Shown here: positions 8,920 to 29,946 of the stretch, piece by piece
Numbering within the stretch: position 1 is the first letter of the stretch
How the letters are laid out: every line of letters starts with the position of its first letter
Made by a program: the position numbers and the translations under genes
Assembly: GCF_016793485.1 (NCBI RefSeq)
Contig: NZ_JAEULZ010000003.1
Span: 186,001-250,000 of the forward strand
Length of the DNA stretch: 64,000 nt
Origin: Mesorhizobium sp.
Lineage (GTDB): Bacteria > Pseudomonadota > Alphaproteobacteria > Rhizobiales > Rhizobiaceae
Direction: 5' to 3'
Notes under the pieces: model-generated
What the model saw: the letters and a program-made list of their open reading frames with translations, nothing else
Told to the model about the DNA's origin: nothing
Database searches by the model: none

Positions 8920-8923
8920 GCTT

Positions 8924-11645: not shown

Positions 11646-11722
11646 GGTGGGCGTTGGGTACGCCCGCCAGGTGGAACAGACCGTCAGCCTCCCGATCCAT
11701 TCTTTGCCTTCCATAGGAAGGC
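11646..11722. terminator. Two stem-loops between convergent operons
   Basis: GGTGGGCGT (11646-11654) pairs with ACGCCCGCC (11660-11668) around a 5-base loop, with one wobble pair. GCCTTCC (11706-11712) pairs with GGAAGGC (11716-11722) around ATA and touches the dihydropyrimidinase stop codon. Neither has a long T-run, so these are weak or Rho-assisted terminators, or 3' end protectors. Their place between two convergent genes supports a termination role for both strands. Confidence 0.5.
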
Positions 11723-13185
11723 TATGCTGACGGCACTTGAATGCCTGTAACGGGGTCGAACCCGGTCACGAAACGGCCAAGGGGTGCGATGTAGTCGTAA
11801 GGTGCCCGAGCCAAAAACCGGCCGTGACCCTCGCGCCCTTCGATGACCCCATCGCGGCAAACCACCTTGCCGCGCGACAGGGTCAGTTCCGGCCAGCCGG
11901 TCACCTCCACGCCCTCATAGACCGTATAGTCCACCTGATGATGGAGATCGGCGTTGCGGATGGTGACCTTGCGTGTCTGATCCCAGATCGCGATATCGGC
12001 ATCGGCGCCCACGGCGATCGTGCCTTTCTTCGGCGAGAGGCCGAACAGACGCGCCGGGTTGGTGGCCGAGAGGGCGACGAATGTCTGGAGGTCGATGCGT
12101 CCCTTGACGACCCCTTCCGAAAACAGGATCGGCAGCCGTGTCTCGAGACCCGGGATGCCGTTCGGCACGACGGAAAATGGAGCATTCTCGCCGGAAACTT
12201 TCTTGCCATGCGGCCCGTCGAAACGGTTCGGTGCATGGTCCGAGGAAAAGACGCTGATCGTTCCATCGCGAAGATAGGACCACAGCGCCTGCTGGTCTTC
12301 CTCCGTTCGCGGCGCGGGGCTGCACAGGAACTTCGCCCCCTCGAAGCCCTGCCGGTCGAGATCGCGGTCGGTCAGCATCAGATATTGCGGGCACGTCTCG
12401 GAAAAGACCTTGAGGCCGCGCTGCTGCGCGCGCCTGATTTCCTCCGCGGGCTCCGCGCCGGATACGTGGAAGATGTGGACCGGCGTGTCGAGGAGTTCGG
12501 CCAGCGAGATGACGCGGTGGCAAGCTTCCCGCTCGACAGCCGGCGGCTTCGCCCAGGCGTGATACTTCGGCGCGGTCAGGCCAGCCTTTTCGAGCGCCTC
12601 TGTCAGGAAGGCGATCGCCGCGTGGTTCTCCGCATGCACGCAGACCAGCGCCCCGCAGCGACGCGCCAGAGCGAGAACCTTCAGCGTCTGGGCATCGTCA
12701 AGAACGATGTTGTCGTAGGTCAGGAATATCTTGAGGGAACGATGCCCTTCCGCGATCAGTGCCGGCAATTCCTCCAGCACCGCAGGAGAAGGGTCGGATA
12801 TGATCATATGGAAGGAGTAGTCGATCAGCGCTTTTTCCGCCTTGCGATGGTAGTCGCGCAGGTTGCCGGTCACGATGCCGCCTTTGACCTGCGTGCAGAA
12901 AGGTATGACCGTCGTGGTTCCGCCCGCCGCTGCGGACGCGGTGGCGCTGGCGAACGTGTCGGCGTTGTGGACATCGCCGACCGGCGGCTCCTCGATGTGG
13001 CAATGCGTATCGATGCCTCCCGGCAGCACGTAGCGTCCTTCCGCGTCGATCTCCTCCTGCCCCGGCGCAAGATCGCGCCCCAAGGCAACGATCTGCCCTT
13101 CGCGGATACCGATATCCGACATGAACACGTCGCTTGCGGTTGCGACGGTCCCGCTACGGATTACCAGATCGAATTCAGTTCCCAT
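11722..13185 (-). CDS. Dihydropyrimidinase/hydantoinase
   Basis: A 487-residue cyclic-amide hydrolase that opens dihydropyrimidine or hydantoin rings. Binuclear metal-site residues are visible: His61 and His63 (GGIDTHCHIEEP), Lys152 (RSLKIF, the carbamylated lysine position), His184 (VCVHAENH), His240 (HIFHVSG) and Asp316 (SSDHAP). The length is normal. The frame stays open to 13617, but the ATG at 13185 has an AGGAG site just upstream and starts as the family does (MGTEFDLVIRSG). It is the last gene of the operon behind a nucleoside-type importer and another deaminase, which suggests that imported nucleobases or their ring-oxidised products end here. Substrate preference (dihydrouracil, 5-substituted hydantoin, allantoin-like) cannot be told. 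Confidence 0.9.
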   Translation of the reverse strand: MGTEFDLVIRSGTVATASDVFMSDIGIREGQIVALGRDLAPGQEEIDAEGRYVLPGGIDTHCHIEEPPVGDVHNADTFASATASAAAGGTTTVIPFCTQVKGGIVTGNLRDYHRKAEKALIDYSFHMIISDPSPAVLEELPALIAEGHRSLKIFLTYDNIVLDDAQTLKVLALARRCGALVCVHAENHAAIAFLTEALEKAGLTAPKYHAWAKPPAVEREACHRVISLAELLDTPVHIFHVSGAEPAEEIRRAQQRGLKVFSETCPQYLMLTDRDLDRQGFEGAKFLCSPAPRTEEDQQALWSYLRDGTISVFSSDHAPNRFDGPHGKKVSGENAPFSVVPNGIPGLETRLPILFSEGVVKGRIDLQTFVALSATNPARLFGLSPKKGTIAVGADADIAIWDQTRKVTIRNADLHHQVDYTVYEGVEVTGWPELTLSRGKVVCRDGVIEGREGHGRFLARAPYDYIAPLGRFVTGFDPVTGIQVPSA

Positions 13186-13195
13186 GTGGATCTCC

Positions 13196-14545
13196 TCAGG
13201 CTTGCAGGCACTGGATCCGCCGAGCCTGCCGCGCATGGCGGGCCAGGATGTCGGGCAGGTCCTTGGAAACGGGTTGTGCGTCCTCGACAAGCGGAACGCC
13301 GGCGACCATGGTAAGCCCCGCGACAGCCGGTGCGCATCGCAGCCAGGCTTCGACCGGATCGGTGTGCGCACCTGCCAGGGCAACCTCCGACATGTGCCAC
13401 ACGACAAGATCGGCGCATGCGCCAGGCTCGAGGTGCCCGATCTCGTCCTGCCAGCCGAGGCACGCTGCTCCCCCGATGGTCGCGGCGTCGAGCGCATCGC
13501 GGGCTGACATGGAAGCGGGACCATTGCGGTAGCGACCGAGGAGCAGCGCCGTGCGCGCCTCCAGCCACATCGATGCGTGGTCGGTCGATGCGGAACCGTC
13601 GCAGCCAAGCCCGACATTCATGCCGCGCCGTCTCAATCCCATCATGTCTGCGGAACCGCCACCGATCAGCATGTTCGAACACGGGCACTGAGCTACGCAG
13701 ACGCCGGCATGCGCGAGACGGTCGATCTCGTCGCTGCGTGGATAGATGAAATGGGCAACCCAGGAGCGGTTCGTCGCCCAGCCTACCCGCTCGAAATACT
13801 CGACCGGAGTGCAGCCGTAGACTTCCTTGCAATAGACGTCTTCTTCGGGATCTTCAGCAAGGTGCGTGTGCAGCCGAAGATCGTAGGTCTCGGCCAGCCT
13901 TGCCGATTCCTTCATGATGCGCTCGGTGACCGAGAACAGCGAACAAGGGGCCAAGGCGACACGGCTCATCGAGCCAGGCCCGGGATCGTGGTAGGCCTCG
14001 ACCAGCCTGACGCTGTCGGCGAGGATATCGTCCTCCGACTGAACGACCGATGCCGGCGGCAAGCCTCCCTGCTCCACCGACCGGGTCATGGAACCGCGCG
14101 TGGCGTAGAAGCGGAAGCCGATATCTTTCGCGGCACGGAACTGTGCGTCGATCAGGAACGGCTTGGGATGGACATACATGTGGTCCATCGATGTCGTGCA
14201 GCCCCCCATCAGGAGTTCGGTCATCGCGACGTAGGTCGAGAGATAGACCGCATCCTCGTCGAGCTTTGCCCATAGCGGATAAAGGCCGGTCAGCCATTCG
14301 AACAACGTGCCGTTGGTGACGGGCGCATAGGCGCGCGTCAGGTTCTGGTACATGTGATGGTGGACGTTGATCAGGCCCGGTGTCAGCAGCCGCCCTCCGG
14401 CGGAAATCGTGCGCCGGGCTTCGGGTTCATCGCCTGCCTTGCCGACCGAGTGGACCCGGCCATCCTTTACCGCCACCCAGCCGCCGGCGATTTCATGACC
14501 CCGCTTCACATACACATGCGCATCGCGCACCACGCAATCCAACAT
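13196..14545 (-). CDS. Amidohydrolase, 8-oxoguanine deaminase-like
   Basis: A 449-residue metal-dependent deaminase of the TrzA/AtzB/guanine deaminase branch. Metal-site motifs are GLINVHHHMYQNLTRA (His62, His64), LHTHLAED, AHFIYP and GCDGSASTD. The FEWLTGLYPLWAKL and GCTTSMDHMYVHP segments match what I remember of bacterial 8-oxoguanine deaminases, which release ammonia from 8-oxoguanine or related purines and triazines to give uric acid-like products. It lies 10 bp upstream of the dihydropyrimidinase and 147 bp downstream of the transporter permease, all in one direction, so it probably acts on the imported base. Hydroxyatrazine-type substrates are the main alternative. Confidence 0.8.
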   Translation of the reverse strand: MLDCVVRDAHVYVKRGHEIAGGWVAVKDGRVHSVGKAGDEPEARRTISAGGRLLTPGLINVHHHMYQNLTRAYAPVTNGTLFEWLTGLYPLWAKLDEDAVYLSTYVAMTELLMGGCTTSMDHMYVHPKPFLIDAQFRAAKDIGFRFYATRGSMTRSVEQGGLPPASVVQSEDDILADSVRLVEAYHDPGPGSMSRVALAPCSLFSVTERIMKESARLAETYDLRLHTHLAEDPEEDVYCKEVYGCTPVEYFERVGWATNRSWVAHFIYPRSDEIDRLAHAGVCVAQCPCSNMLIGGGSADMMGLRRRGMNVGLGCDGSASTDHASMWLEARTALLLGRYRNGPASMSARDALDAATIGGAACLGWQDEIGHLEPGACADLVVWHMSEVALAGAHTDPVEAWLRCAPAVAGLTMVAGVPLVEDAQPVSKDLPDILARHARQARRIQCLQA

Positions 14546-14692
14546 CTTCGGTCACCTCCAAGGCCATGACGCCGGCCGCACCGGCCCCGGCGTTGTGAGC
14601 CCTGTCCCGCGGGGTGCGAACCGCGGATCGTCATCGAGGTGAACGGGCAATGCTTGCCGCTTCCTGCGGCAGTCTAATCGCGAATGTGCCTC

Positions 14693-15628
14693 CTAACGGA
14701 CATCCCTGAAATACGGCTCGCCCAGTGCGGCGGGAGCGGCCATCAGACGGCGCACCTTCTGCCATGCGAGAACCGGAACGATCATCAACGCGATGGTGCC
14801 GAGATAGGGCAGCATGGACAATACGGGAGCCGCGATCGGCCAGTTGCGGGCTTGCCCTACGAAACCGAGCGACGTGATCAATCCAAAGAGCAGCGCCGCG
14901 CCCACTGCGGTCCATGGGCGGTAGCCCGCAAAGATCACCAGCGCCACGGCAATCCAGCCGCGGCCCGCAACGACGCCTTCCGACCAGGACGGTACGAAGG
15001 CCAGCGTGAGGTAGGCGCCTGCGCCTGCGGCAAGCGCCGCGCCGGCCGAGACGTACCAGAAACGAATCCGCGTGACCGGAATGCCGGCGGCATCGGCTGC
15101 AGCCGGATTCTCGCCGACTGCCCTGAGGTCGAGACCGTGCCGTGTCCGGAAAAGCAGATGATGGAGAGCGAAGGGCAGAACGAGATAGATGACGTAAACC
15201 AGAACATTCTGGGTGAAGAGCGCACGGCCCACAAGCGGCAGATCGCTCAGGAAAGGGATTGCGATTGGCGCGAACGTCACCGGCGCGGGAATACCGGAAT
15301 AGGCCTTGCCCACCATCGCGGCAACGCCGGTGCCCATCAGGGTCAGCGCGAGGCCGCACAGGATCTGGTTAGCGCGGATGATTACGGTAGCCGTCGCGAA
15401 GACCATGCCGGCGAGAAGGCCGACAAGCATCGCGAGGATGAGACCCAGCGTCGGGCTTGGCACCGCGACCACGGTGGCGATGCCGGTTATCGCGCCCAGC
15501 GCGATCAGCCCTTCAACGCCCAGATTGACCACGCCGACCCGCTCGGCGAGCACTTCGCCCAGCGCTGCCAGCGCGAGCACGCCGCCGGCCAGGATGGCGG
15601 TTTGTATCAGACCAGCGAGTAGGTCCAT
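14693..15628 (-). CDS. ABC permease, purine/nucleoside (BMP-type) importer, second permease
   Basis: A 311-residue integral membrane protein with about eight to nine hydrophobic helices, of the branched-chain-type permease family used with Bmp/PnrA binding proteins (YufQ/NupQ-like). The motifs GVVNLGVEGLIALGAITG near the N-terminus and AVGENPAAADAAGIPVTRIRFWYVSAGAALAAGAGA (read in pieces, about residues 185-225) are the family coupling region. It lies 18 bp after the partner permease. With 15647-16693 it would form the channel of a nucleoside or nucleobase importer. Confidence 0.87.
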   Translation of the reverse strand: MDLLAGLIQTAILAGGVLALAALGEVLAERVGVVNLGVEGLIALGAITGIATVVAVPSPTLGLILAMLVGLLAGMVFATATVIIRANQILCGLALTLMGTGVAAMVGKAYSGIPAPVTFAPIAIPFLSDLPLVGRALFTQNVLVYVIYLVLPFALHHLLFRTRHGLDLRAVGENPAAADAAGIPVTRIRFWYVSAGAALAAGAGAYLTLAFVPSWSEGVVAGRGWIAVALVIFAGYRPWTAVGAALLFGLITSLGFVGQARNWPIAAPVLSMLPYLGTIALMIVPVLAWQKVRRLMAAPAALGEPYFRDVR

Positions 15629-15646
15629 GTCGAAACTCCAGGAATG

Positions 15647-16693
15647 CTACGCCGGCTTCGAGCGAACGATGCGATAATGCGAAAGTTCATCGCCAATGGC
15701 CGTGAAGAAAAGGATCAGCCCGGTCAGTGCGAGCACTGTCGAGATGTTCACGCCCTGCGTCTGCAGCGCGATGCCTGACTTCAGGATCACTGCCATCAGG
15801 GCCGCACCTGCGATTACCCCGATTGCCGATCCGCGCGCCAGGACTGCGACCATGATGCCGATGTAGCCGAAATTGTTGGATATGCCGCCCTGCAGCCTGT
15901 GGGTGGTGCCGATGACTTCAAACATGCCGGCCAGCCCGGCGATGGCGCCAGACATCAGCATGACGACGATGAGATGACGGCGAAACGGGATCGCCGCATA
16001 GCGTGCCGCGGCTGGATTGGAGCCGGCGATACGCACCTCGTACCCCCAGCGCGTGTAGTTCAGCACGCCTGCCAGCGCGACCGTGAGCAGAACGGCAATC
16101 GGTAGGCCCCAGTGAACATCGCCCCAGAAGCCGGGCACATCATGCGGCAGCCGCTTGGTGGCGGCAAAAGAAAGTCCGCTTGGGTCAAGCCACGGCCCCG
16201 TCGCCAGATAGTAGATGAAAAGTGCGCCGACGAAATTCAGCAGCAATGTCGTGATGAGCTCGCTGACATCGGCATAGGCTCGGGCAAGCGTGGGTATGAG
16301 AATCCACAGCATGCCGCCGATGGCGCCCGCCACGAACATGAGCGGGAGGACCAGGATCGTCGGCCCGGGTACGAAAAGCGCGACGGCGGTGGCGGCGATG
16401 GCTCCGGCGCAGAACTGCCCTTCCGCTCCGATATTCCAGGCACCCACCTTCATGGCGACAGTGACTGCGAGGCCTGTCAGGATGAGAGGCGTCACGATCA
16501 GGCCGAGATCCATCAGGCCGAAACGGGAACCGAATGTCGATTTGAAAACATGGGCTCCAAGCTTGCCGAGGTCGGCGCCACTCATTGCGAAGACGATAGC
16601 GGCGATTGACAGCGCCAGGACAATGGCGATGAGCCGTGCCGCCAGGCCGCCTGCCATGTTCTCGGACGGCACGCGCTGTATGCGAATGGACAT
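15647..16693 (-). CDS. ABC permease, purine/nucleoside (BMP-type) importer, first permease
   Basis: A 348-residue membrane protein (YufP/NupP-like), with an N-terminal helix at about residues 15-40 and a series of hydrophobic segments to the C-terminus. It shows VGAWNIGAEGQFCAGAIAA and RIAGSNPAAARYAAIPF, the conserved features of this permease class. Its start codon shares one base with the stop of the ATPase gene (TGATG), so the two are translationally coupled. It pairs with 14693-15628. Confidence 0.87.
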   Translation of the reverse strand: MSIRIQRVPSENMAGGLAARLIAIVLALSIAAIVFAMSGADLGKLGAHVFKSTFGSRFGLMDLGLIVTPLILTGLAVTVAMKVGAWNIGAEGQFCAGAIAATAVALFVPGPTILVLPLMFVAGAIGGMLWILIPTLARAYADVSELITTLLLNFVGALFIYYLATGPWLDPSGLSFAATKRLPHDVPGFWGDVHWGLPIAVLLTVALAGVLNYTRWGYEVRIAGSNPAAARYAAIPFRRHLIVVMLMSGAIAGLAGMFEVIGTTHRLQGGISNNFGYIGIMVAVLARGSAIGVIAGAALMAVILKSGIALQTQGVNISTVLALTGLILFFTAIGDELSHYRIVRSKPA

Positions 16694-18297
16694 CAGCGAA
16701 CCTCCTCGGCAGAGCCGGCCTCAAGGCTCCGTTGCCCGCCCATCATGAGGCCTATGGTCTCGACATCGACCTGGGATGAATCGACGACGCCCATGACTTC
16801 GCCATGGAACATGACGGCAATGCGGTCCGAGAGCTTGAACAGCTCTTCCAGCTCCTCGGAGACGAACAGCACTCCCACGCCGGCATCCCGTAACTCGGTA
16901 AAATAGCTCATCATCGCGTTGATGGCGCCGACGTCGAGTCCCCGCGACGGATAGGCCGCGACCAACACATTCGAAGCGATGCGCATTTCGCGCCGTGCGA
17001 CGAGCCGTTGCTGGTTGCCGCCAGAGAGGTTGCGCACTGGCATTTTGAAGTCCGGCACCGCCACGGAAGCCGCTTCGGCGATGGAACGCGCAAGCGCAGC
17101 GGCCGCCGAGGGACGATACATCCATCCCTGCGACAACGGTGCCTTGCCATATTCTCGGATCACGACATTGTCTGTGATGCTGAGCGCAGGCGCGAGCCCG
17201 CTGTGGAGCCTGTCTTCAGGGATATGGCCAACGCCAAAGGCCGCGAATTCCTCCGCACCGCGCGATGAAAGGTCCTTGCCGCAGACATGAATCTCGCCGC
17301 CCGACGCTCGGCGCACGCCGGTCAGCACCTGCGACAGTTCCTTCTGGCCATTGCCGGCGACGCCGGCGATACCCAGGATTTCGCCGGCACGCAGGTCCAG
17401 CGAGACGTTCTTCAGGGACAGGTTCCCAAGGTCGTCCCGCGCAGAAACATTTCGCAGGCTCAGCACGGGGGCATCGGATATCGGCTTCGCGCCCGGCTTG
17501 CGCTCGCGCATGTTGCTGAGCACAACTTCTTGCCCCACCATCAAGCGAGCGAGGATTCGCTTGTCGCACTCATTGGTCGGTTTGGTCGTGACCTTTCGGC
17601 CGCCACGCAAAACCGTAACGCGGTCCGAAATCTCCAGAACCTCGTCCAGCTTGTGGCTGATGAAGATGACCGCGTTGCCACGCGCCGCGAACTGCCGGAG
17701 CGCCTTGAAGAGTTCGGCGGCCTCCGCCGGCGTCAAAACCGCCGTCGGCTCGTCGAGGATCAGGACACGCGCTTTGCGCGACAGCACACGCAGGATTTCG
17801 ACGCGCTGTTGTTCGCCGGTTGACAGGTCGCTGACACGCGCGCCCGGCTTCACTGCAAGGTTCAGCGAGGCGGCGATTTGCGCCGTCCTCGCCTCGAGTA
17901 GATCCCGGCTGATGCGGCCGGGAGTTTCGGACCATCCGAGATGGACGTTTTCAGCAACCGTGAATGCCTTCACCAGCTTGAAGTGCTGATGAACCATGCC
18001 GATGCCGGCCGCGATCGCCTCGACCGGCGATGCGAAAGTGACAGGCTGGCCGTCAACGATGATTTCACCCAGATCCGGCCTGTATATGCCGGTCAGGATA
18101 TTCATCAGCGTCGATTTGCCCGCGCCGTTCTCACCGAGCAGCGCGTGGATTTCGCCTGGCAGCAGGTCGAAATCCACGTCCTGGTTGGCGATCACTCCGG
18201 GGAAATGCTTCGCAACTCCCCGCAGCGACACTATCGGCTGGACCGCAACGCCAGAAGCGGCCGTCCGATCAACATCCAGCATGACATTCATGATCAT
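16693..18297 (-). CDS. ABC ATP-binding protein with two nucleotide-binding domains, nucleoside type
   Basis: A 534-residue tandem ATPase (YufO/NupO or RbsA-like). The first domain has Walker A GENGAGKST, signature LSTGEQQRV and Walker B VLILDEPTAVLTP. The second has a degenerate Walker A (GVAGNGQKE) and signature LSGGNQQRL, followed by AAYPSRGLDVGA in place of a normal Walker B. This asymmetry is normal in the family: only one site is fully catalytic. An ATG two codons downstream (18291) could also be the start. It lies 6 bp after the binding-protein gene. Confidence 0.9.
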   Translation of the reverse strand: MIMNVMLDVDRTAASGVAVQPIVSLRGVAKHFPGVIANQDVDFDLLPGEIHALLGENGAGKSTLMNILTGIYRPDLGEIIVDGQPVTFASPVEAIAAGIGMVHQHFKLVKAFTVAENVHLGWSETPGRISRDLLEARTAQIAASLNLAVKPGARVSDLSTGEQQRVEILRVLSRKARVLILDEPTAVLTPAEAAELFKALRQFAARGNAVIFISHKLDEVLEISDRVTVLRGGRKVTTKPTNECDKRILARLMVGQEVVLSNMRERKPGAKPISDAPVLSLRNVSARDDLGNLSLKNVSLDLRAGEILGIAGVAGNGQKELSQVLTGVRRASGGEIHVCGKDLSSRGAEEFAAFGVGHIPEDRLHSGLAPALSITDNVVIREYGKAPLSQGWMYRPSAAAALARSIAEAASVAVPDFKMPVRNLSGGNQQRLVARREMRIASNVLVAAYPSRGLDVGAINAMMSYFTELRDAGVGVLFVSEELEELFKLSDRIAVMFHGEVMGVVDSSQVDVETIGLMMGGQRSLEAGSAEEVR

Positions 18298-18303
18298 CGG
18301 ATC

Positions 18304-19422: not shown

Positions 19423-19490
19423 TGTTCTCCTCCATTGTTGTTAGGTCGGCCGGTTTTGCTGTAGGGCCGATTTATGGCTGCCGCGTCCGG

Positions 19491-19511: not shown

Positions 19512-19584
19512 TTCCTCCCGTGCGGTTGTTGGTCTTGTTGTCCTGCCTTCCTTCTGATCTCGGGTAGCGTTTGTAGGCGGCTCT

Positions 19585-20034: not shown

Positions 20035-20520
20035 TCAAGCGCCCTGGCCTGCGTCGGCAGCCTTGAGTGCGACAGCTCGGACTGCTCCACGGATGATGGA
20101 GTGGTATCCGGTGCATCGGCACAGATTGCCGCCGAGTGCTTCACGGATTTCGGTCTCGCTTGGATCGTCGGTTTCACGCAGGAGGGCGGTAAGGGTAACG
20201 GTGAAACCAGGAGCGCAGTAACCGCACTGGAACGCGTTTTCCTCGATCAGGCCCTGCCTGACAAAGGAGCTCTCCGGCACTGCGTCCAGCCCTTCCGGAG
20301 TGATGATGTCGGCGCCTTCCACCTGCCACATCATGAGCAGGCAAGCATTTGTCGGCGCACCGTCGCGCAACACCATGCAGGCTCCGCACCGTCCGATGCC
20401 ACAGGCCTTCTTGGAGGCCGTCGCATGAAGATTTTCCCGGAGGAGATCAATCAGACGCGTCTCCGGGGATACGTCGGCGCTCCGATCCTCGCCGTTCAGC
20501 CTAAAGCGGAATACCGTCAT
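20035..20520 (-). CDS. Molybdenum hydroxylase [2Fe-2S] subunit
   Basis: A 161-residue electron-transfer subunit of the xanthine dehydrogenase/CO dehydrogenase family. The plant-type ferredoxin cluster is bound by Cys40, Cys45, Cys48 and Cys60 (ACGIGRCGACMVL, NAC), and the second all-helical cluster by Cys99, Cys102, Cys134 and Cys136 (FQCGYCAPG, LCRCTGYH). All eight cysteines are present. The start overlaps the stop of the large subunit by 4 bp, so the two are made together. It would pass electrons from the Mo site to the FAD domain in the partner chain. Confidence 0.92.
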   Translation of the reverse strand: MTVFRFRLNGEDRSADVSPETRLIDLLRENLHATASKKACGIGRCGACMVLRDGAPTNACLLMMWQVEGADIITPEGLDAVPESSFVRQGLIEENAFQCGYCAPGFTVTLTALLRETDDPSETEIREALGGNLCRCTGYHSIIRGAVRAVALKAADAGQGA

Positions 20521-23500: not shown

Positions 23501-23657
23501 TGACGATGCGACCGAGCGCTATCGCCCTGTCTGTCAGCCGCAGGCCCATGGCCCAGTCGAGCTGGGCGAGTGTGCCTCCGCCGAGGAAATAGGTGTCTTC
23601 ATCGCCCGCAGCCAGTTCCAGGGCTTCTTCGGAGGTCGAAGGATGAAGGACCAGCAT
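20517..23657 (-). CDS. Molybdenum hydroxylase large subunit: FAD domain fused to molybdopterin domain
   Basis: A 1046-residue polypeptide. Residues about 1-280 are the FAD-binding module (FLGGGTLAQLDWAMG, RNIGTIGGNVGG, then the CO_deh_flav_C part). A linker follows at about 280-310. The rest, about 310-1046, is the molybdopterin module (GDAIAAVAAVNAEVAE, GGAFGGKDELTVQPALA, GGAFRGFGCNQMSYALE). Glu1006 in GIGELGIGAVTP is the expected catalytic base. No selenocysteine or CO-dehydrogenase-type active-site loop is seen, so a purine or N-heterocycle hydroxylase is more likely. Bacterial xanthine dehydrogenases normally fuse Fe-S with FAD or keep three genes; FAD-Mo fusion is unusual. No XdhC chaperone or Mo-cofactor gene is in the window. 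Neighbouring deaminases and amidase suggest an N-heterocyclic substrate. Confidence 0.88.
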   Translation of the reverse strand: MLVLHPSTSEEALELAAGDEDTYFLGGGTLAQLDWAMGLRLTDRAIALGRIVTLQGIDVGSDFVRIGALTTLAAIEHNRTVADALPMLLAAIKVTAAPSVRNIGTIGGNVGGRRGCLIPVLLAMDAQLEIVRPGARQRISLVNWLGTLRDPDCLIEAIVVPRLPAPTRWTYRKTGLRAGFTPGVIGIAGSLLMAGDRIEDCRIAVGGGVTAMRHFEVEALLKGELLEAVDWSHVHTELMEAIKAPTDPQRSTSYRRRVAANALVHGLTGRLPGTSGNRNRPLLSPPTGPVEEIRLGRGPSGRHWHTRPDGPAKIAGRLTYLTDVREEGMLVGRVLRPKMPHAYIGHISTKRAEALPGVVAVVTHRDVKGSNGFGIVVQDQPAMCFDKVRYTGDAIAAVAAVNAEVAERALKLIRLRYKPVPVVSDAKAALEPGAPAVHASGNLQREIHFERGNIEDAFARAAHVVEATYRTPRQMHTFMETEGGYAYVSDDGTLNVCAGGQHGRRDQMQLARILGLPEDKIRIVSSPTGGAFGGKDELTVQPALALLALKTGRPVRMQLERAESVRAGTKSNPMTIRMRTACDAEGRLVAQQVDLLSDSGAYASLSPGVLETALEHACGPYDVANVEAHARLAYTNNGAGGAFRGFGCNQMSYALECQVERLAVACGLDSIAFRARNMRKAGTRGYLGQAVAPTERLSEMLDAAAADAIWKMPRGLSEDGTEFIGIGMGMNYQGNGLGTLPPDPGGGALRLARDGKIEAAYGLDEIGQGLLAAIRNTVAAELGCGHDDIRPLTGDTATSPESGSTTASRGTYVVWRVARDAAPNLAEQIKISAASILDRDPDSLVIVPGGVADRASNSGEILLSFADLAAALPEGERPVAETEFEFPKSDYFDGNARLIFAFGATLARVAVDRVSGHVRVLDISQHTAAGPVLDHAAYLGQIEGASVQGLGFTTLENSLLESGKYFTWNLDGYMIPSIRDAPQSMAVFAHEGLASDDTFGPRGIGELGIGAVTPAIANAVADAIGYWPERAPFDPERILEAMSRPS

Positions 23658-23710
23658 GATCCTCTAGGCGCTCCTCTCTTTCGCGCAGCGCGTGATGCGA
23701 ACGAAGCGCC

Positions 23711-25090
23711 TCAACTGGTCGTCCACTGCACCATGTCGCCCTGGCTTTCGGCCAGGAACGCAGCCCGGCGATCAAAGAGGCCGGGCGCAACCTTATGCAC
23801 TTCGGCGATAATCGCCTTGATATCGGCGGTCTTGAGCTCTCCATCCTCGACCAGGATTTTCCCGTCCACCATCGTCAGCGAAACGTCGCTGCCGCGCACC
23901 GCATGAACGATGTTGTGATGCAGGTTTGCGTAGGGGCCGTCCCGGAAGAATGGCGTCATGCGCGGCGTGTCGGCTCGCACGGCGATGATGTCGGCCCGCT
24001 TGCCGACGTCGATCGACCCGATTTCATGGTCGAGGCCTATCGCGCGCGCCCCGGTGATCGTGCCCATGCGCAGCACTTCCCAGCTGTCCAGAGGATGCAC
24101 CTTATCATAGCGCAGCTTGCCCAGCAGCGAGGCGACCTTCATCTCCTCGAACATGTCAAAGTTGTTGTTCTCCTTTTCGCCATCCGTCCCGACGCCTACC
24201 GGAACCCCGGCGTCCAGCATCTCGCGGACATTGGCGATGCCACTCGCGAGTTTCATGTTGGAGACAGGGTTATGAGCAACCGATACGCGCTTGCCGGAAA
24301 TCATCGCGATCTCTTGAGGATCGAGCCATACGGCATGCGCGATCATAGCTAGAGGTGTCTCGAAGAAACCGATGTCGTCCAGCACGAACATCGGCCGCTT
24401 TCCGTAGCGTTTGACGAAGCCATCGACCTCGATGCGCGCTTCGCTGCAATGCGTGTGGAACCCTGTGTTGTGGTGCTTGGCCATTTCGATGGCGCGGCGA
24501 TGCCCTGCATCATCGGAATAGAAGGGATGCTCGAGGCCCACCCAGACGTTGATGCGCCCGTCGAGCTTGCGGTGCCAAGTCTCGATCATCGCCTCGTTCA
24601 TGTCGAGCGTGTCGAAGTAGTTGTAGTCGGGATGCTCGCCGACATAGGGTACCGCGACGAGGCGGTTGCCGATCTCCTTGGCGACCTTCGCGCTGCCGTC
24701 CATGTAGCGCCACATGTCGACGATCGTAGTGGTGCCGCCAAGCAGGGATTCCGCATAGCAGAGCCACGATGCCGCCTCCGCTTCATGCGGCCGGAGCACG
24801 CGGTGCATCGGATTGATGTGCTGCGTCAGCCAGTCCCATACTGGCAGGTGTTCGGCCGTCCCGCGCAGGAAACCCGAATGGACATGGGTGTTGATCAGAC
24901 CGGGAAGCAGAACCGCGTTGTGCAGGTGCTTCGTCTTCACGCCGGGGTTGTTCGCGGCGACTTCGTCCAGCGTGCCAACCGCCGCAATGATTCCGCCATC
25001 GACCAGAACCGCGCCGTCCAGGATGACGCGATTTTCTGCGTTCATTGTAAGCAGCGCATCTGCGGCAAGTATCAATTTGGTGTCGGGCAT
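23711..25090 (-). CDS. Amidohydrolase, TrzA/SAH-deaminase-like
   Basis: A 459-residue metal-dependent hydrolase of the chlorohydrolase/SsnA/MtaD branch. Metal and proton-transfer residues are in GLINTHVHSGF, FHTHCSEAR, AHAVWLDP and GTDGEKENN. The ATG at 25090 has a GAGGA site upstream and begins MPDTKLILAADALLTM; the frame is open 13 codons further. Relatives remove amino, chloro or alkylamino groups from purine-like and triazine rings. It lies 53 bp before the molybdenum hydroxylase, so deamination and ring hydroxylation of the same compound is plausible. It is clearly different from the 8-oxoguanine-deaminase-like protein at 13196. Confidence 0.82.
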   Translation of the reverse strand: MPDTKLILAADALLTMNAENRVILDGAVLVDGGIIAAVGTLDEVAANNPGVKTKHLHNAVLLPGLINTHVHSGFLRGTAEHLPVWDWLTQHINPMHRVLRPHEAEAASWLCYAESLLGGTTTIVDMWRYMDGSAKVAKEIGNRLVAVPYVGEHPDYNYFDTLDMNEAMIETWHRKLDGRINVWVGLEHPFYSDDAGHRRAIEMAKHHNTGFHTHCSEARIEVDGFVKRYGKRPMFVLDDIGFFETPLAMIAHAVWLDPQEIAMISGKRVSVAHNPVSNMKLASGIANVREMLDAGVPVGVGTDGEKENNNFDMFEEMKVASLLGKLRYDKVHPLDSWEVLRMGTITGARAIGLDHEIGSIDVGKRADIIAVRADTPRMTPFFRDGPYANLHHNIVHAVRGSDVSLTMVDGKILVEDGELKTADIKAIIAEVHKVAPGLFDRRAAFLAESQGDMVQWTTS

Positions 25091-25186
25091 CGAAGTCCTC
25101 GGTTCTGTCCTGCGGAACGCGGCCGGCATTCATGGCCGCATTCCCATCATATGAAGCGATCTTCCGCTCCATTCCTGTTCTGAGGC

Positions 25187-25921
25187 TTATCGCAGGTCCT
25201 GGAACAGGCGTCCCCAGCCTTTGATCTTGGCAGGGTCGTGGCCGGTCATCAGAAGAGTCTTCCACACTGTGGCGCTGACGGAATCATAGATTGGAATACC
25301 GATCTCGCGCTCAAGCTCTTCGACGATCGGCGCGCCACGGAAATTGGTGCACAGGACGATGATCGCCTCCGGTTTGTCCTTGGCGACATCGCGGATCATA
25401 TTGGCGATGGTGGTTTCGTCATATTCCGAGAACGAGAAATTGCCCTTGTCGCCGAGGTGACGTTCGGAGGTGACGGGATGGCCGGCCTTGGCATAGTTGG
25501 CCACGATCTGCTTCTGCACGTCTTCAAGGTACGGCGTCACGAGGCCCAGACGCTTCACATTGGTGCGGTCGAGAATTTCGTTCAGGGCCAGCACGCTGGT
25601 CGTGGAGGGCGCGCCGGTCGCCTCTGTGATCTGCTGGCAGAGATCAAGGTCCACGTCGAACCCGCGCCAGCCGGCAGCCGTGCCCGCCCAGGCGATGACG
25701 TCCATCTTCGCGTCGTTTAGGGTCTTCGCCGCCTCGATCAGCGGTTCGTTCTTGAACTGCGCCATCGCCTTGTCGTCGAGGGATATTTCCCTGACGGTGA
25801 AGCGCTGAAAATGCGCCGTCACCTCTGGGAGCATCTGATGGAGGATGGCCCCCATATACGGCTCAAGAACGGTGTTCGACGAGGGCGTCAGCATCCCCAG
25901 CAGGGTTCGCTTGAGAGCCAT
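25187..25921 (-). CDS. Asp/Glu racemase superfamily protein, arylmalonate decarboxylase/maleate isomerase-like
   Basis: A 244-residue protein of the family holding maleate isomerase, arylmalonate decarboxylase (AMDase) and hydantoin racemase. Two-cysteine members use Cys in both half-sites; here the first is replaced (AWAGTAAGW, Gly80-Thr81) and only Cys191 (VLCTNFRG) remains. That is the AMDase pattern (Gly in site one, Cys in site two). Tyr131 (TPYLEDV) and the C-terminal WGRLF also match what I recall of AMDase. So cofactor-free decarboxylation of a malonate-type acid, or an isomerisation with one thiol, is more likely than racemisation. The gene lies between an enoyl-CoA hydratase and a deaminase in the N-heterocycle operon. 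Confidence 0.75.
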   Translation of the reverse strand: MALKRTLLGMLTPSSNTVLEPYMGAILHQMLPEVTAHFQRFTVREISLDDKAMAQFKNEPLIEAAKTLNDAKMDVIAWAGTAAGWRGFDVDLDLCQQITEATGAPSTTSVLALNEILDRTNVKRLGLVTPYLEDVQKQIVANYAKAGHPVTSERHLGDKGNFSFSEYDETTIANMIRDVAKDKPEAIIVLCTNFRGAPIVEELEREIGIPIYDSVSATVWKTLLMTGHDPAKIKGWGRLFQDLR

Positions 25922-25959
25922 GGAATTTTCCTCCGATCAAATGCGGATGCCGCGCGGTG

Positions 25960-26718
25960 TCATTCACCGCGAACTGTCGGCGCCCTGTTTTCAAGAATTG
26001 AGTTTATGCCTTCGTGCAGGTCCTTGGTGCCGAACATCAGTTGCCACCCGCGACGCTCCAGCGCGAGGCCGACTTCGGCCGGCGCATCGAGGCCAAGGCG
26101 CACGATTTCCTTTATCTGGCGCACCGTGATCGGCGGGCGCGATGCGATCTGCTGGGCCAGATCGAGCGCACGCGGCAGCGCATCGCCTTCCACCACTTCT
26201 GCGACCAGCCCCATGCGCAGCGCATCCGCGGCGGACATTGGCGTCCCGGTAAGCAGCGCGTACATCGCGTTCTGCCGGCCAATCACCTTCGGCAGGCGCT
26301 GTGTCGCGCCGCCACCGGGCACAAAGCCGACGTTGACTTCAGGCTGGGCGAACCGCGCTCCATCGGAGGCAATGACGAAGTCCGCCTGCAGGACGAGTTC
26401 GCAGCCTCCGCCGAAAGCGTCGCCATTGACCGCAGCGATGACTGGCTTGGGCGAACGCCAGAGCGCATGGGTCGTGAAGGTGCCGATCGCACCGACCACG
26501 TCCCTGCCCGACTGCTCCCTCAGGTCGGCGCCGACGGCGAACACCTTGTCGCCGCCCGTCAGCACGATCACCTTGATCGAATCGTCTTCGGCGATCTCGT
26601 TGACATGCTTCTCGATCAGCCGCCTGACCTCGGTCGTCAGCGCATTCCTGACGTCGGGCCGGTTCAACCGGATCACCGCGACGCCCGGACGGGCAACTTC
26701 TATCAGCACGACCGACAT
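25960..26718 (-). CDS. Enoyl-CoA hydratase/isomerase (crotonase family)
   Basis: A 252-residue crotonase-fold protein. The oxyanion-hole segments VFAVGADLRE and NGDAFGGGCELVLQAD, and both catalytic acids (Glu in GGGCELVL and in QPEVNVGFVPGGG), are present. It should therefore be a true hydratase rather than a degenerate member. It adds water to a 2-enoyl-CoA, here probably late in breakdown of the ring-opened substrate. No CoA ligase or thiolase is next to it in this operon, so the CoA ester must be made elsewhere. It is spaced 38 bp from the AMDase-like gene and 35 bp from DUF2237. Confidence 0.87.
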   Translation of the reverse strand: MSVVLIEVARPGVAVIRLNRPDVRNALTTEVRRLIEKHVNEIAEDDSIKVIVLTGGDKVFAVGADLREQSGRDVVGAIGTFTTHALWRSPKPVIAAVNGDAFGGGCELVLQADFVIASDGARFAQPEVNVGFVPGGGATQRLPKVIGRQNAMYALLTGTPMSAADALRMGLVAEVVEGDALPRALDLAQQIASRPPITVRQIKEIVRLGLDAPAEVGLALERRGWQLMFGTKDLHEGINSILENRAPTVRGE

Positions 26719-26753
26719 GTCTTCCTCCCTCGACAGCCTGCTTCCGCTTCGGT

Positions 26754-27131
26754 TCAGGCCTTGGGCTTGTCCACCGCGTGTTCCAGCAGCAGTTTCATCG
26801 GGATGATGTCGAGCGCAGCCTTATTGGTCGCGGAGAGAACCACCGGGCATGCCGCGCCGTTCTGGTAGGCCTCGAGCCACTTTGCCGTCAGCACGCACCA
26901 GCGGTTGCCGGGAACCAGTCCAGGAAAACGCTTGTCGGGTTCAGGCACGGACAGATTGTTGCCGATGCTGTCCTGGAAGGCGATGAATTCCTTGGTGACG
27001 ATCGCACATACCGTATGCGGGTTCGGATCGTCTGGACCGTCGTCGCAACAGCCATTGCGCGTATATCCCGTCATGGGCTCGAAGCCGCACGGCTCCAGCG
27101 GCCCGCCGAGGACGTTACGCCTGTTGGTCAT
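26754..27131 (-). CDS. DUF2237 protein
   Basis: A 125-residue protein of the DUF2237 family, recognised by NVLGGPLEPC, TGYTRNGCCDDGPDDPNPHTVCA and the C-terminal GNRWCVLTAKWLEAY. Cysteines occur at CGF, the vicinal pair GCC, VCA and WCV, which could bind a metal or form disulfides. There is no signal peptide. The function of the family is not known to me. The start codon overlaps the amidase stop by 4 bp (ATGA), so it is firmly part of the operon between an amidase and an enoyl-CoA hydratase. It may be an accessory or metal-handling factor, but this is only guilt by association. Confidence 0.8.
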   Translation of the reverse strand: MTNRRNVLGGPLEPCGFEPMTGYTRNGCCDDGPDDPNPHTVCAIVTKEFIAFQDSIGNNLSVPEPDKRFPGLVPGNRWCVLTAKWLEAYQNGAACPVVLSATNKAALDIIPMKLLLEHAVDKPKA

Positions 27132-28687
27132 GCGACTACTCCCTGTCTGGTGCGGTCGTCTGCAAGACGACCCGATGGCGGAGGGGCCATGAAGACTTCG
27201 CGCCGAAAACGATGCGCTAGCGCGATGAGGCAGTGGTCATCCAGCGCACGGCCGATCAGCAGCATGCCAACCGGCAGCCCGTCGATCATGGCGCACGGCA
27301 CGCTTAGTGCGGGATGCCCCGTCAGGTTCATAACGCAGTTGTTGTCGTGCATTTCGAAGGCTAGCTTCTGGTGCTCGGCCGGCGCCAACGGACCCCCGGG
27401 CAGCCGGTGCGGCAGCATGGGCACTGTCGGCATCACCAGGACATCGTAGCGCTTCAGCGCAGCGTCGTACTGCGCCCGCAGCGTCCGGCGTAGCGCTTGT
27501 GCCAGCGCCATGACACGGCCCTTTGTCTCGTGGCGAAGCAAGGTTCCCGCGATCAGCGAGACCTTGCCGTTCAGAGGCAGGTTTTCGATGTTCGTATCGA
27601 ACGCCTTACCAAACGCCATTGCGAGTGCGGGATCGTAGGCGCCTGCATGGTTGCTGCCCTGCATGTTCTGCTCGAACACTGTCGCCAGGCCACCTTCGCA
27701 CGAGATCGGAACGTGGATGTCGCGCCCGTGCCTGTGAAGCTCGACCGCGGTTTCTTCCGCGCCTGCGCACAGTTTTCCCAGAGCGGTGGCCGCATCCCTC
27801 ACGACCGCATCAACACGTGGATCGGAACGATCCGGCCAGCCGAAACCATCAATCACGATGCCTATACGAAGCTTGGAAATATCCCTGTCGAGATCGTTGG
27901 CCGAACCGACCAGTTTTCCAACACCCACCTGGCGCGGATCGTCCTCGCTATGGCCTGCGACTGCATCCAGAAGTCGCGCCAACTGCGAAGGGGTGCGCGC
28001 CATCAGGCCGAGATGGTCCATGCTGTACTCGGTCGGCAATGCCCCGAAATAGGGTACGACGCCGAACGTCGCCTTGAGCGCCAGGACCCCACACCACGCA
28101 GCAGGGTTGCGGACGGATCCGCCAAGGTCCGTACCCAACGCGATATCGGCCTGGTCGCTTGCCAGCAACGCACCGCATCCGCTGGTCGAGCCGCCGGCGG
28201 AACGCTTGGCGTCATAGGGGTTCAGGACCGGTCCCGTGGCGCTTGTGAAACTGGAGCCGGAATAGCAAAGGTCCTCACAGACGGCCGTGCCGACAAGTTG
28301 CGCACCGGCTTCGAGCGCGCGCTCCACGACGGTCGCGCTGTGCGCCGGCGTATAGTCGCGCAGGAATGCCGACCCCGCCGTCATCGGCACGCCGGCAACC
28401 GCGATCGAATCCTTGACGGCCAGCCTCATGCCGCTCAACGGTCCTGGCGATCCGGCATGTCCTTGCGTCCTGTACATCCAGGCGTGAAGCGCGTCAGTCC
28501 CGGCCACGCGTTCCAGATCGCGGAACGGTGCCGGTTGGGAGGTCGTCGGAAGGCTCGCTGCCAGCGCCTCGACCCGCGCATAGGTTGCCCGCGTTCCGTC
28601 GAGCAGCGCGTCCAGCCCCTCGATGGCGTCCGCATCTATTTCCCAGCGCGCCAGCAGGCGGTCGCGGTCGGCAGGCGTCGACGCCAT
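27128..28687 (-). CDS. Amidase-signature-family hydrolase
   Basis: A 519-residue amidase with the complete Ser-cisSer-Lys triad: Lys92 (LAVKDSIAV), Ser167 (GGSTSGCGALLA) and nucleophile Ser191 (GTDLGGSVRNPA). These enzymes hydrolyse amides, ureido acids and allophanate. It is larger than minimal amidases, but there is no AtzF/DUR-type C-terminal domain, so it is not a typical allophanate hydrolase. Coupling is tight: its start shares a base with the DUF1116 stop (TAATG) and its stop overlaps DUF2237. It probably cleaves the linear amide or ureido acid formed after ring opening. It is not GatA, since no GatB or GatC is near. Confidence 0.85.
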   Translation of the reverse strand: MASTPADRDRLLARWEIDADAIEGLDALLDGTRATYARVEALAASLPTTSQPAPFRDLERVAGTDALHAWMYRTQGHAGSPGPLSGMRLAVKDSIAVAGVPMTAGSAFLRDYTPAHSATVVERALEAGAQLVGTAVCEDLCYSGSSFTSATGPVLNPYDAKRSAGGSTSGCGALLASDQADIALGTDLGGSVRNPAAWCGVLALKATFGVVPYFGALPTEYSMDHLGLMARTPSQLARLLDAVAGHSEDDPRQVGVGKLVGSANDLDRDISKLRIGIVIDGFGWPDRSDPRVDAVVRDAATALGKLCAGAEETAVELHRHGRDIHVPISCEGGLATVFEQNMQGSNHAGAYDPALAMAFGKAFDTNIENLPLNGKVSLIAGTLLRHETKGRVMALAQALRRTLRAQYDAALKRYDVLVMPTVPMLPHRLPGGPLAPAEHQKLAFEMHDNNCVMNLTGHPALSVPCAMIDGLPVGMLLIGRALDDHCLIALAHRFRREVFMAPPPSGRLADDRTRQGVVA

Positions 28688-29946
28688 TATGTCTGGGCCC
28701 CGGCGGAAAGCGCCTCGCTTGCCGCAATGAAGGGCTCTATCGGCACCCGGGTGATCCCCGCGCCGATACGGCCGTGGCCGGGCAGCCGATGCGCCATGCC
28801 ATTGTTGATGACCGGTGCGATGCCGGTCGCACGAACCTTGTTCACATCGATACCGATCGGTGTGCCGCGATGTTCCTCCACCGGGATCAGGAAACGCGTG
28901 CTGGTTCCTGCACAGATGCTACGCATTTCTGCGACGAACTGAGTTGCCTCGGCAGCGGTACCCCCGACGAAAGACATGATTGCCGGCGCTGCCGTCATGG
29001 CGAAGGCGCCGAATCCGGCGGTCTCCGAGATCATGGAATCGCCCATGGTCGGGGTGATGTCCTCTATGCGGGCTCCCGGCACGAGCTTCGGCTCGCCGAT
29101 CGGAGAAGGAGCGACGAACCAGCGGTCACCCATTCCGCTGACACGAATGCCGAAGTCGCGGCCGTTTGCCGACATGGCTGTGACGATCGGGCTGCCGGGC
29201 ACATCGGACGCGGCCAGCGTCAGCGCCTTGGCCATGGAGATGGCGAAGGGCAGTGCGAAATGGCCATTGCCGGCCATGAAGGTCGCGACCTTTTCGGCCG
29301 CGTCCTGGTGCTTCGACCGGATGAAGGACGGAGCGAAGCGGATAATCAGGTTGCCGGTGGTGGCAACGAGGCGGTTGTGGCACTCGTCGCCGCGACGCAA
29401 TCCCTCGGTAATAAGGTCGACGAGATCGATCGGCGCGGAACCCTGCACAGCCTCGTCCAGCACGGCCACCATGTCGGTCGCCATCCAGCGCAACCGAGCC
29501 AGTGTCTTCTCATCGTAGGAACCATAACGCACCGCGCCGTCCGTGCCTTCATTTAGCGGCGCAAAGGTCGTGTGTCTGTCCGAGCGAGCAACCGCGACAG
29601 GCATGCTCGGCGTGATGATGCCGGCCATGGCGCCGAGCGCGCCCGCGTCGTGGCAGGGTGATATCTCGACATCGCCGGCATCGATGATCGCTTCGGCTTC
29701 CGCGACATCCTTCGCCTCGCCCTCAAGGAGCAGGCCACCGATGATGGCACCTCGCATGGGCCCCGGTATGCGGTCCAGTTCGATCGGGGGACCTGCATGC
29801 AGGAAGCTGCGAGGCCCCACCTTGCCCGTCACTTCGCGCGCCGTGCAAATCCGTTCCAACACCACCTTGGTAGAGTCGAGCGCCGCGACGGACCGCTGGA
29901 TCGGATCGAGATTTTGGCACGGTGCCGGTGTGGGTTCTGCGTTCAT
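28687..29946 (-). CDS. DUF1116 protein (YlbE/AllG-like), first gene of the heterocycle operon
   Basis: A 419-residue protein of the DUF1116 family, recognised by LHAGPPI, PGPMRGAIIGGLLLEGEA, SPCHDAGALGAMAGIITPSMPV and FAPLNEGTDGAVRYG. In enterobacteria the DUF1116 protein YlbE acts with FdrA and YlbF in oxamate carbamoyltransferase of allantoin breakdown. Neither partner, nor a carbamate kinase, is in this window. It is therefore an orphan, either working with partners elsewhere or doing a different reaction. It is the promoter-proximal gene, divergent from the LysR regulator across 293 bp, with a one-base overlap to the amidase. A carbamoyl-transfer role would fit a pathway that releases ureido or carbamoyl groups. 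Confidence 0.8.
   Translation of the reverse strand: MNAEPTPAPCQNLDPIQRSVAALDSTKVVLERICTAREVTGKVGPRSFLHAGPPIELDRIPGPMRGAIIGGLLLEGEAKDVAEAEAIIDAGDVEISPCHDAGALGAMAGIITPSMPVAVARSDRHTTFAPLNEGTDGAVRYGSYDEKTLARLRWMATDMVAVLDEAVQGSAPIDLVDLITEGLRRGDECHNRLVATTGNLIIRFAPSFIRSKHQDAAEKVATFMAGNGHFALPFAISMAKALTLAASDVPGSPIVTAMSANGRDFGIRVSGMGDRWFVAPSPIGEPKLVPGARIEDITPTMGDSMISETAGFGAFAMTAAPAIMSFVGGTAAEATQFVAEMRSICAGTSTRFLIPVEEHRGTPIGIDVNKVRATGIAPVINNGMAHRLPGHGRIGAGITRVPIEPFIAASEALSAGAQT

Follow-up and report, generated by a model that had tools for sequence, protein, structure and literature searches.

A conserved gene cluster of Mesorhizobium combining a Rieske oxygenase, a stand-alone AllG and an AMDase-like protein, with a possible role in the breakdown of a nucleobase-like cyclic ureide

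Three described systems stand closest to the gene cluster reported here. In the allantoin fermentation of E. coli, oxamic transcarbamylase, which acts on oxalurate, is built from three subunits, AllG among them (available part of PMC11326118). Arylmalonate decarboxylase (AMDase) is recognized by Thr75-Ser76, Tyr126 and Gly189 of its dioxyanion hole, by the pair Pro14-Pro15 and by the motifs LMGTSLSF and ILLSCGGL, and its natural substrate is stated to be unidentified (available part of PMC4996985). Finally, a Mo-hydroxylase, an amidohydrolase and a hydantoinase come together in the reductive urate pathway of E. coli (available part of PMC12507026). We analyzed a 64,000-nt stretch of the Mesorhizobium sp. 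contig NZ_JAEULZ010000003.1 (hereafter the window, in whose positions all strands and coordinates are given) and found a real, conserved catabolic system in which known families occur in a new combination. The system is apparently undescribed so far: no pathway combining this gene set turned up in the open-licence literature, most subscription papers lying outside the scope of the search, and no matching cluster was apparent among the caffeine and cytokinin papers listed. An earlier reading of the stretch, made from the sequence only, had come to the same view of its novelty.

The system reaches from 11722 to 34533, counts about 19 neighbouring genes (Table 1) and is larger than the stretch first flagged (11722..29946). 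That interval was too short, as a block of Rieske oxygenase genes (31224-34533, minus strand) behind the LysR gene also belongs to the system; it encodes a ring-hydroxylating oxygenase (RHO) alpha subunit, a 65-aa ferredoxin, a FAD-dependent reductase and a 155-aa protein. The fourteen genes named in the sequence-only reading are all on the minus strand at the places given, each above a Pfam cut-off, and the LysR regulator described as facing them is present and divergent but lies beyond the interval, at 30240-31187. The start of the dihydropyrimidinase gene had to be moved from 13617 to 13185, which gives a protein of 487 aa.

Comparison with other genomes revealed a conserved core made of the AllG, amidase, DUF2237, enoyl-CoA hydratase (ECH), AMDase-like and dihydropyrimidinase genes together with the LysR gene and the Rieske block, present in two families. 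Both this core and the linkage of its genes are direct observations. G151 has the complete set, fourteen genes plus LysR and oxygenase block, in the same order as the window; G067 keeps the window order, LysR and oxygenase block included, and lacks the cluster dihydropyrimidinase alone; and Mesorhizobium sp. 65-26 follows the window order throughout the fetched part, which ends inside the second permease. Unit 1 (AllG to the 2Fe-2S subunit) and unit 2 (BMP to dihydropyrimidinase) stand together in all three, in agreement with the earlier proposal of one linked uptake-and-breakdown system. In two genomes of the other family, G654 and G608, one strand carries, from LysR onward, genes for the ABC protein, two permeases, the BMP protein, AllG, amidase, DUF2237, ECH, the AMDase-like protein and dihydropyrimidinase. 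There the dihydropyrimidinase gene of unit 2 adjoins the AMDase-like gene and so is joined directly to unit 1, so that units unlinked in other genomes, the outcome named in the sequence-only reading as a refutation, were not observed. Identities to the window proteins are 78–80% for LysR, 71–72% for AllG, 77–78% for the AMDase-like protein, 73% for ECH, 65% for DUF2237, 63–65% for the amidase and 59–60% for dihydropyrimidinase. Downstream of the core lies a phytase-like gene in G654, and an amidohydrolase-family gene (PF01979, 52 bits) follows dihydropyrimidinase in G608.

All four genes of the Rieske block lie beside LysR in G151, G067, Mesorhizobium sp. 65-26, G654 and G608. RHO alpha is 98%, 93%, 93%, 84% and 87% identical in these genomes, respectively, and the ferredoxin 97–98% in the first three and 89% in G654 and G608, making the two (84–98% and 89–98%) the best conserved among the proteins compared across both families. 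The FAD reductase is 56% identical in G654 and G608, and the 155-aa protein 72–86% in the first three genomes and 56–58% in the last two. The sequence-only reading had assigned the first oxidation to the Mo-hydroxylase. This has to be revised, for the Rieske system is the oxygenase kept in 6/6 genomes, and the stretches fetched around the core in G654 and G608 contained no relative of the Mo-hydroxylase or of the two amidohydrolases (AH1 and AH2).

Among 397 genomes drawn from the order, the AMDase-like protein was found at 77–100% identity in G000, G067, G654 and G608 and at no more than 58% in the other 68 of 72 matching genomes, and RHO alpha at 86–100% in the same four genomes and at 40% in one more. 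Core-type AllG (at least 70%) was detected in 3/297 genomes of the family, in 2/28 genomes of the family of G654 and, among 385 genomes drawn from the class, in the own genome only. Within the genus, 3/4 genomes carry the AMDase-like gene, the fourth being 87% complete.

Table 1. Genes of the cluster, with the matches on which each assignment is based.
Feature	Position	Strand	Evidence
Dihydropyrimidinase/hydantoinase, PRK13404 subfamily, predicted ring opening	11722..13185	-	NF009941 692 bits (cut-off 647), over 480/487 aa
AH2, 8-oxoguanine-deaminase-type amidohydrolase	13196..14545	-	NF006055 545.5 bits (cut-off 532)
ABC permease 2 (BPD_transp_2)	14693..15628	-	Pfam
ABC permease 1 (BPD_transp_2)	15647..16693	-	Pfam
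ABC ATPase, two ATPase stretches	16693..18297	-	Pfam PF00005 x2
BMP/PnrA-type substrate-binding protein	18304..19422	-	Pfam PF02608 123.5 bits
2Fe-2S subunit of Mo-hydroxylase	20035..20520	-	Pfam Fer2_2; PucE-like, under cut-off
Fused FAD + molybdopterin hydroxylase	20517..23657	-	Pfam MoCoBD_1 249 bits; best NCBIfam PucD 662, below cut-off 784
AH1, amidohydrolase of 5'-deoxyadenosine deaminase/TRZ-ATZ group	23711..25129	-	Pfam; best NCBIfam 316 bits, below cut-off 522
AMDase-like one-cysteine Asp/Glu racemase superfamily protein	25187..25921	-	Pfam PF17645 75 bits (cut-off 25.9)
Enoyl-CoA hydratase (ECH)	25960..26718	-	Pfam ECH_1 207 bits; GGGCE and QPE glutamates present
DUF2237 protein	26754..27131	-	Pfam PF09996 147.6 bits
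Amidase-signature amidase	27128..28687	-	Pfam PF01425 255 bits; NF005565 478, below cut-off 545
Stand-alone AllG/DUF1116	28687..29946	-	Pfam PF06545 214 bits (cut-off 27)
LysR regulator, divergent from AllG	30240..31187	+	Pfam
155-aa protein without Pfam family	31224..31691	-	kept beside oxygenase in all five other genomes
FAD ferredoxin reductase (Pyr_redox_2 + Reductase_C)	31736..32938	-	Pfam
65-aa ferredoxin	32976..33173	-	Pfam Fer4_13
Rieske ring-hydroxylating oxygenase (RHO) alpha subunit	33292..34533	-	Pfam Rieske PF00355 71 bits + Ring_hydroxyl_A PF00848 78 bits

Gaps between genes range from -4 to 57 bp in unit 1 and from -1 to 147 bp in unit 2, and 612 bp separate the two. The units share a strand, as proposed earlier; their division into two transcription units is read from spacing, as no promoter- or terminator-like site was detected in the 612-bp gap. 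The N-terminus of the binding protein carries a twin-Arg motif. AH1 and AH2 both match Pfam Amidohydro_1 (211 and 188 bits). When ten cluster enzymes were scanned against NCBIfam, curated cut-offs were passed by AH2 and dihydropyrimidinase only, the latter also above TIGR02033 (524 vs 393). The Mo-hydroxylase, its 2Fe-2S subunit, AH1, the amidase, ECH and the AMDase-like protein were under all cut-offs among the matches listed, the Mo-hydroxylase falling below both xanthine dehydrogenase models (PucD/XdhA; 662 vs 784 and 384 vs 780), and no NCBIfam model matched AllG or DUF2237. For DUF2237 the structure model was of no use (mean pLDDT 39), and its neighbours on three plasmids showed no common theme.

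Tentatively, and with what we consider nearly an even chance of being right, we read the cluster as dedicated to the import and degradation of a cyclic ureide resembling a nucleobase, namely a pyrimidine or purine in oxidised, amino- or alkyl-substituted form, with breakdown initiated by the oxygenase and passing through an acylurea; substrate, step order and chemistry are deduced from the protein families. The BMP-type ABC transporter would import the base, which in this genus the two base deaminases and the Mo-hydroxylase could trim and oxidise. Served by a ferredoxin and a reductase of its own, the Rieske oxygenase would attack the ring or an N-alkyl group, and the hydantoinase-type enzyme would open a non-aromatic cyclic ureide to an acylurea, possibly an oxalurate homologue, for instance ureidomalonate or a hydroxylated relative. 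AllG, acting alone, would split this acylurea, the adjoining amidase would hydrolyse the remaining half-amide, and the one-cysteine AMDase-like enzyme would decarboxylate (or isomerise) a malonate-type diacid. After CoA activation by a ligase presumably encoded elsewhere, ECH may lead the carbon to central metabolism. This scheme gives neither DUF2237 nor the 155-aa protein a step. The order put forward in the sequence-only reading (hydroxylation, deamination, ring opening, amide hydrolysis, decarboxylation or isomerisation, CoA-linked breakdown) is likewise a prediction. The nucleobase-like substrate is suggested by the BMP/PnrA importer, by AH2 lying over the 8-oxoguanine deaminase cut-off, by an SLC23-family neighbour, by the purine-type contexts of related genes and by the oxygenase and BMP neighbours in G643 (see below). 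The acylurea step is suggested for AllG because its known complex acts on oxalurate and because AllG genes without FdrA have amidase and malonyl-CoA neighbours. A CoA step is likely because ECH, aligned to the solved hydratase 5xzd, has both the GGGCE and the QPE glutamate, the two residues that are catalytic in true enoyl-CoA hydratases. The more specific proposal, in which free-standing AllG cleaves an acylurea with its partner amidase, the AMDase-like protein decarboxylates without cofactor and an aerobic route begun by an oxygenase leads from a nucleobase-like ring to a malonate-type acid, seems doubtful to us.

The label AllG-like, given to the DUF1116 protein in the sequence-only reading, holds for family membership and does not extend to oxamic transcarbamylase, since its partners AllF and AllH are absent. 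No AllF/FdrA orthologue was found in 5/5 core-cluster genomes (best partial matches 27–37 bits, 24–28%), and AllH (DUF2877, PF11392) was detected in 0/5, with a positive E. coli control. The structure model of AllG (mean pLDDT 90) had a sole fold match below E 0.001, 3clq (E 2.8e-38), itself a structure of unknown function. We compared 40 non-core AllG loci covering 41/49 non-core places, some stretches being short, and 22 of them had no FdrA match in the fetched stretch. In three of these (L094-L096) malonyl-CoA synthase and amidase genes form a single run with AllG, joined in two cases by malonyl-CoA decarboxylase, and these three loci may represent a malonate-linked DUF1116 operon in its own right. 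These three stand-alone operons with malonyl-CoA enzymes are the basis for the malonate link of the proposed route; there, CoA-dependent decarboxylation would replace the AMDase-like step. A same-strand amidase accompanies AllG in 5 of the 22 loci, namely in L094-L096 and in L181 and L182, where it directly follows AllG; the FdrA-linked locus L112 has an amidase too. In a tree of 48 AllG rows, the six core rows form one clade and L094-L096 another, each with 100/100 support; row L177, which a 25% AMP-binding match 8 kb off had put with the malonate group, is not counted as malonate-linked. The 17 FdrA-linked rows have 86 invariant columns; all six core rows agree with them in 60, and at least one core row departs in the other 26. 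M185R and D300T are common to core and malonate-linked AllG (9 rows) and occur in 0/28 other rows (37 compared). Further AllG genes without FdrA or same-strand amidase nearby were seen at L108, L167, L173 and in their clades; the few neighbours scanned, all of them at these three loci, comprised SelO, poly(A) polymerase, coproporphyrinogen oxidase and glutamine synthetase.

In the AMDase-like protein, Gly80 and Cys191 are invariant in 35/35 aligned rows (window included) and align with Gly74/Cys188 of AMDase, and Pro14, Thr75 and Tyr126 of AMDase have equivalents. The earlier name is thus apt for the Gly/Cys pair; a true arylmalonate decarboxylase was rejected, since Pro15, Ser76, Gly189 and both motifs are changed, and the score against the arylmalonate decarboxylase model NF052327 is 71 bits (cut-off 225). 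From 82 non-core places, 54 AMDase-like loci were picked by hand, mostly stronger ones and not as a random sample; in the fetched stretch, 16 had a dihydropyrimidinase (at least 50%), 29 an amidase and 15 a deaminase-type amidohydrolase. The corresponding counts for the 40 AllG loci were 0, 10 and 2. These neighbour counts indicate that the association of AMDase-like protein, hydantoinase and amidase recurs beyond this cluster, for example in Azospirillum.

Several observations weigh against the proposed route, its weakest points being G067, which is without the cluster dihydropyrimidinase, and the identity of the substrate, which we infer. G067 encodes elsewhere just a 37% dihydropyrimidinase relative, so that ring opening by the cluster enzyme is either not strictly required there or is done by another enzyme. 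The importer of G654 and G608 is distant (28–42%), and the substrate of the core operon may therefore differ in these genomes. Likewise, the co-occurrence of AMDase-like protein and RHO alpha in four genomes does not represent four independent events, because just two lineages are involved. As for the individual enzymes, AMDase Pro15 is replaced by Ser, Ser76 by Ala and Gly189 by Thr, and the two stereo-motifs read AWAGTAAG and IIVLCTNF; 17 of the 22 FdrA-less AllG loci lack an amidase on the same strand within 6 kb; and the cluster genes include no CoA ligase or dehydrogenase to go with ECH.

Rieske non-haem iron oxygenases usually have a bridging Asp, a place taken by Glu in carnitine monooxygenase. 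RHO alpha has Glu there in 7/7 aligned rows (ENGIEPYH in the window), as does a 40% relative in G643. The nearest solved match of RHO alpha is carnitine monooxygenase (115 bits, residues 38–240). The G643 relative (L219) directly follows a BMP-type ABC importer, with cysteine hydrolase-like and amidase-like genes on the opposite strand; this locus is possibly a third, diverged version of the system. The 155-aa protein may be a small subunit of the oxygenase. In G151 (L076, 457-1830), a 54% relative of the guanine deaminase of Rhizobium tumorigenes immediately precedes the Rieske block; the window showed no such match.

AH1, AH2 and the Mo-hydroxylase form with the importer a front end, and Rhizobium plasmids carry the greater part of it as a separate module. 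There, AH1 relatives of 72–73% adjoin the Mo-hydroxylase, and AH1, Mo-hydroxylase, 2Fe-2S subunit, BMP protein, ABC ATPase and permeases occur without the core. On R. tumorigenes pRt1078 (L186), for example, identities are 73% for AH1, 58% for Mo-hydroxylase, 57% for 2Fe-2S, 62% for BMP, 70% for ABC and 66–71% for the permeases; the neighbours are two VanA_C-only oxygenases, a separate Rieske protein, glutathione S-transferase (GST) and a guanine deaminase above its cut-off, and positions 12715-27804 of this locus are a candidate split Rieske N-dealkylase. R. grahamii BG7 carries an additional 43% AH2 relative. A plasmid of Acinetobacter sp. NCu2D-2 carries a 55% AH1 relative behind a BMP importer, with Rieske oxygenases, HpxO and allantoicase close by, and in Paracoccus aminovorans a 79% AH2 relative is directly beside an SLC23-family permease. 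The Rhizobium and Acinetobacter contexts point to purine-type bases. In G067 (L075, 6406 onward), the cluster ends after AH2 and is followed on the opposite strand by a short-chain dehydrogenase/reductase (SDR) gene and another Mo-hydroxylase set.

These contexts raise the question of N-dealkylation, in which the Rieske system would strip an N-methyl or N-alkyl group from a methylated base or from N-methylhydantoin (as from creatinine), leaving ordinary hydantoin or ureide hydrolysis. The Rhizobium front-end relatives stand with split Rieske oxygenases and GST, an architecture resembling NdmC/NdmE of caffeine demethylation, and carnitine monooxygenase, nearest to RHO alpha among solved structures, cleaves a C-N bond. 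However, the four Rhizobium and Acinetobacter loci contain nothing that matches window RHO alpha at E 1e-5, ring hydroxylases come next in the same match list and close behind carnitine monooxygenase (103 vs 115 bits), and the AMDase-like protein, ECH and AllG are left unexplained. We consider this explanation unlikely.

A purine route in which the pyrimidine ring is opened directly, known from purine-fermenting clostridia, appears less likely still. Here the hydantoinase would convert a xanthine-like base to 4-ureido-5-imidazolecarboxylate, followed by deureidation, decarboxylation by the AMDase-like protein and action of the amidohydrolases on the imidazole. Front end and importer are indeed purine-type, candidates for hydantoinase, deureidation and decarboxylase share one operon, and there is no uricase-type domain among the cluster genes. 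Such a route needs neither a Rieske oxygenase nor ECH, however, and a 5-hydroxyisourate (HIU) hydrolase encoded elsewhere in 5/5 genomes searched suggests that the usual urate route is present. The same two observations on HIU hydrolase and uricase led us to reject the classical urate route as the purpose of the cluster. The reductive pyrimidine pathway was also set aside: the genome encodes one more dihydropyrimidinase, unlike that of the cluster and located next to efflux genes (433 bits, below the PRK13404 cut-off of 647), PydA-type genes not having been sought. Barbiturase (PF09663) was found in 0/5 genomes, with no control genome positive either.

Improbable in our view is a cyclic-imide route drawn from imidase pathways, in which the hydantoinase would serve as imidase and the amidase as half-amidase, while the AMDase-like protein would carry out cis-trans isomerisation or decarboxylation of the diacid. 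The frequent dihydropyrimidinase and amidase neighbours counted above (16 and 29 of 54 loci) would suit it, and maleate isomerases are the next solved relatives of the AMDase-like protein. Nevertheless, maleate cis-trans isomerase needs two catalytic cysteines and the first of these is Gly in 35/35 rows, while AllG and the nucleobase front end would remain unexplained. We give equally little credence to two or three unrelated catabolic units that merely neighbour each other. It is true that the modules can be found apart, Rhizobium plasmids carrying a front end but no core, and G654 and G608 a core but no front end. Yet one divergent LysR is kept with core and oxygenase in two families, gene order agrees between the window, G151, the fetched stretch of Mesorhizobium sp. 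65-26 and, one missing gene apart, G067, and dihydropyrimidinase shifts place while staying linked in all but G067. Finally, a modified form of the reductive urate pathway (XdhD, YgfK or UacX, SsnA, HyuA, YgeW, YgeY, YgeX) is highly improbable, for although Mo-hydroxylase, deaminase-type amidohydrolase and hydantoinase are clustered as in E. coli (available part of PMC12507026), a search of the cluster genes found no YgfK/UacX, YgeX, YgeY or YgeW-type domain, AH1 is under the SsnA cut-off (186 vs 444 bits), and a conserved oxygenase takes the place of the reductase.

Next to the cluster, window positions 7423-11626 hold aldehyde dehydrogenase, GMC oxidoreductase and dihydrodipicolinate synthase (DHDPS)-family genes. 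Relatives of the GMC oxidoreductase and aldehyde dehydrogenase (7423-10555; 38 and 42%) sit in the R. tumorigenes locus. The two were rejected as members, being found beside the cluster neither in G067 nor in the remaining 2.2 kb of G151, and the boundary was for this reason put at 11722. Farther away (58642-62749), a FAD-type aromatic-ring hydroxylase (Pfam FAD_binding_3) near a putative CoA-transferase pair, noted by eye, forms a separate aromatic unit.

The arrangement of AMDase-like protein and AllG in one operon with a hydantoinase beside a Rieske oxygenase, in two families, makes both functions testable, and the ligand of the importer is measurable. The system adds a candidate nitrogen-scavenging route for soil and plant-associated bacteria. 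If the route through free-standing AllG were true, it would provide a natural job for the one-cysteine AMDase-like family and a function of its own for DUF1116.

In comparison with known systems, the cluster shares with oxamic transcarbamylase AllFGH and AllK (E. coli allantoin fermentation, available part of PMC11326118) a full-length AllG/DUF1116 and, as proposed here, acylurea chemistry, and differs in that five cluster genomes are without AllF orthologue or AllH and the window has no AllK match. Similarly, one catalytic cysteine, Gly at the other site and the Pro14, Thr75 and Tyr126 equivalents are common to the AMDase-like protein and arylmalonate decarboxylase (available part of PMC4996985), whereas the Pro15, Ser76 and Gly189 places and both stereo-motifs set them apart. 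Unlike the reductive urate pathway, with which it has Mo-hydroxylase, amidohydrolase and hydantoinase in common, the cluster contains Rieske oxygenase, AllG, AMDase-like protein, ECH and DUF2237; UacY (Amidohydro_3) alone is not set aside, the cluster amidohydrolases matching Amidohydro_3 weakly. The R. tumorigenes pRt1078 locus has the front end described above; it differs by its split VanA_C/Rieske oxygenases, GST, guanine deaminase, GMC and thiamine pyrophosphate (TPP) enzymes, and 35 kb compared gave no match to the window AllG, amidase, DUF2237, ECH, AMDase-like protein or dihydropyrimidinase. Finally, the Azospirillum locus L114 has another ABC transporter, a GntR regulator and, within 24.7 kb, no relatives of AllG, DUF2237, ECH or Mo-hydroxylase, and resembles the cluster in its run of amidohydrolase, AMDase-like, hydA and amidase genes, with 57% identity for the AMDase-like protein and 61% for dihydropyrimidinase.

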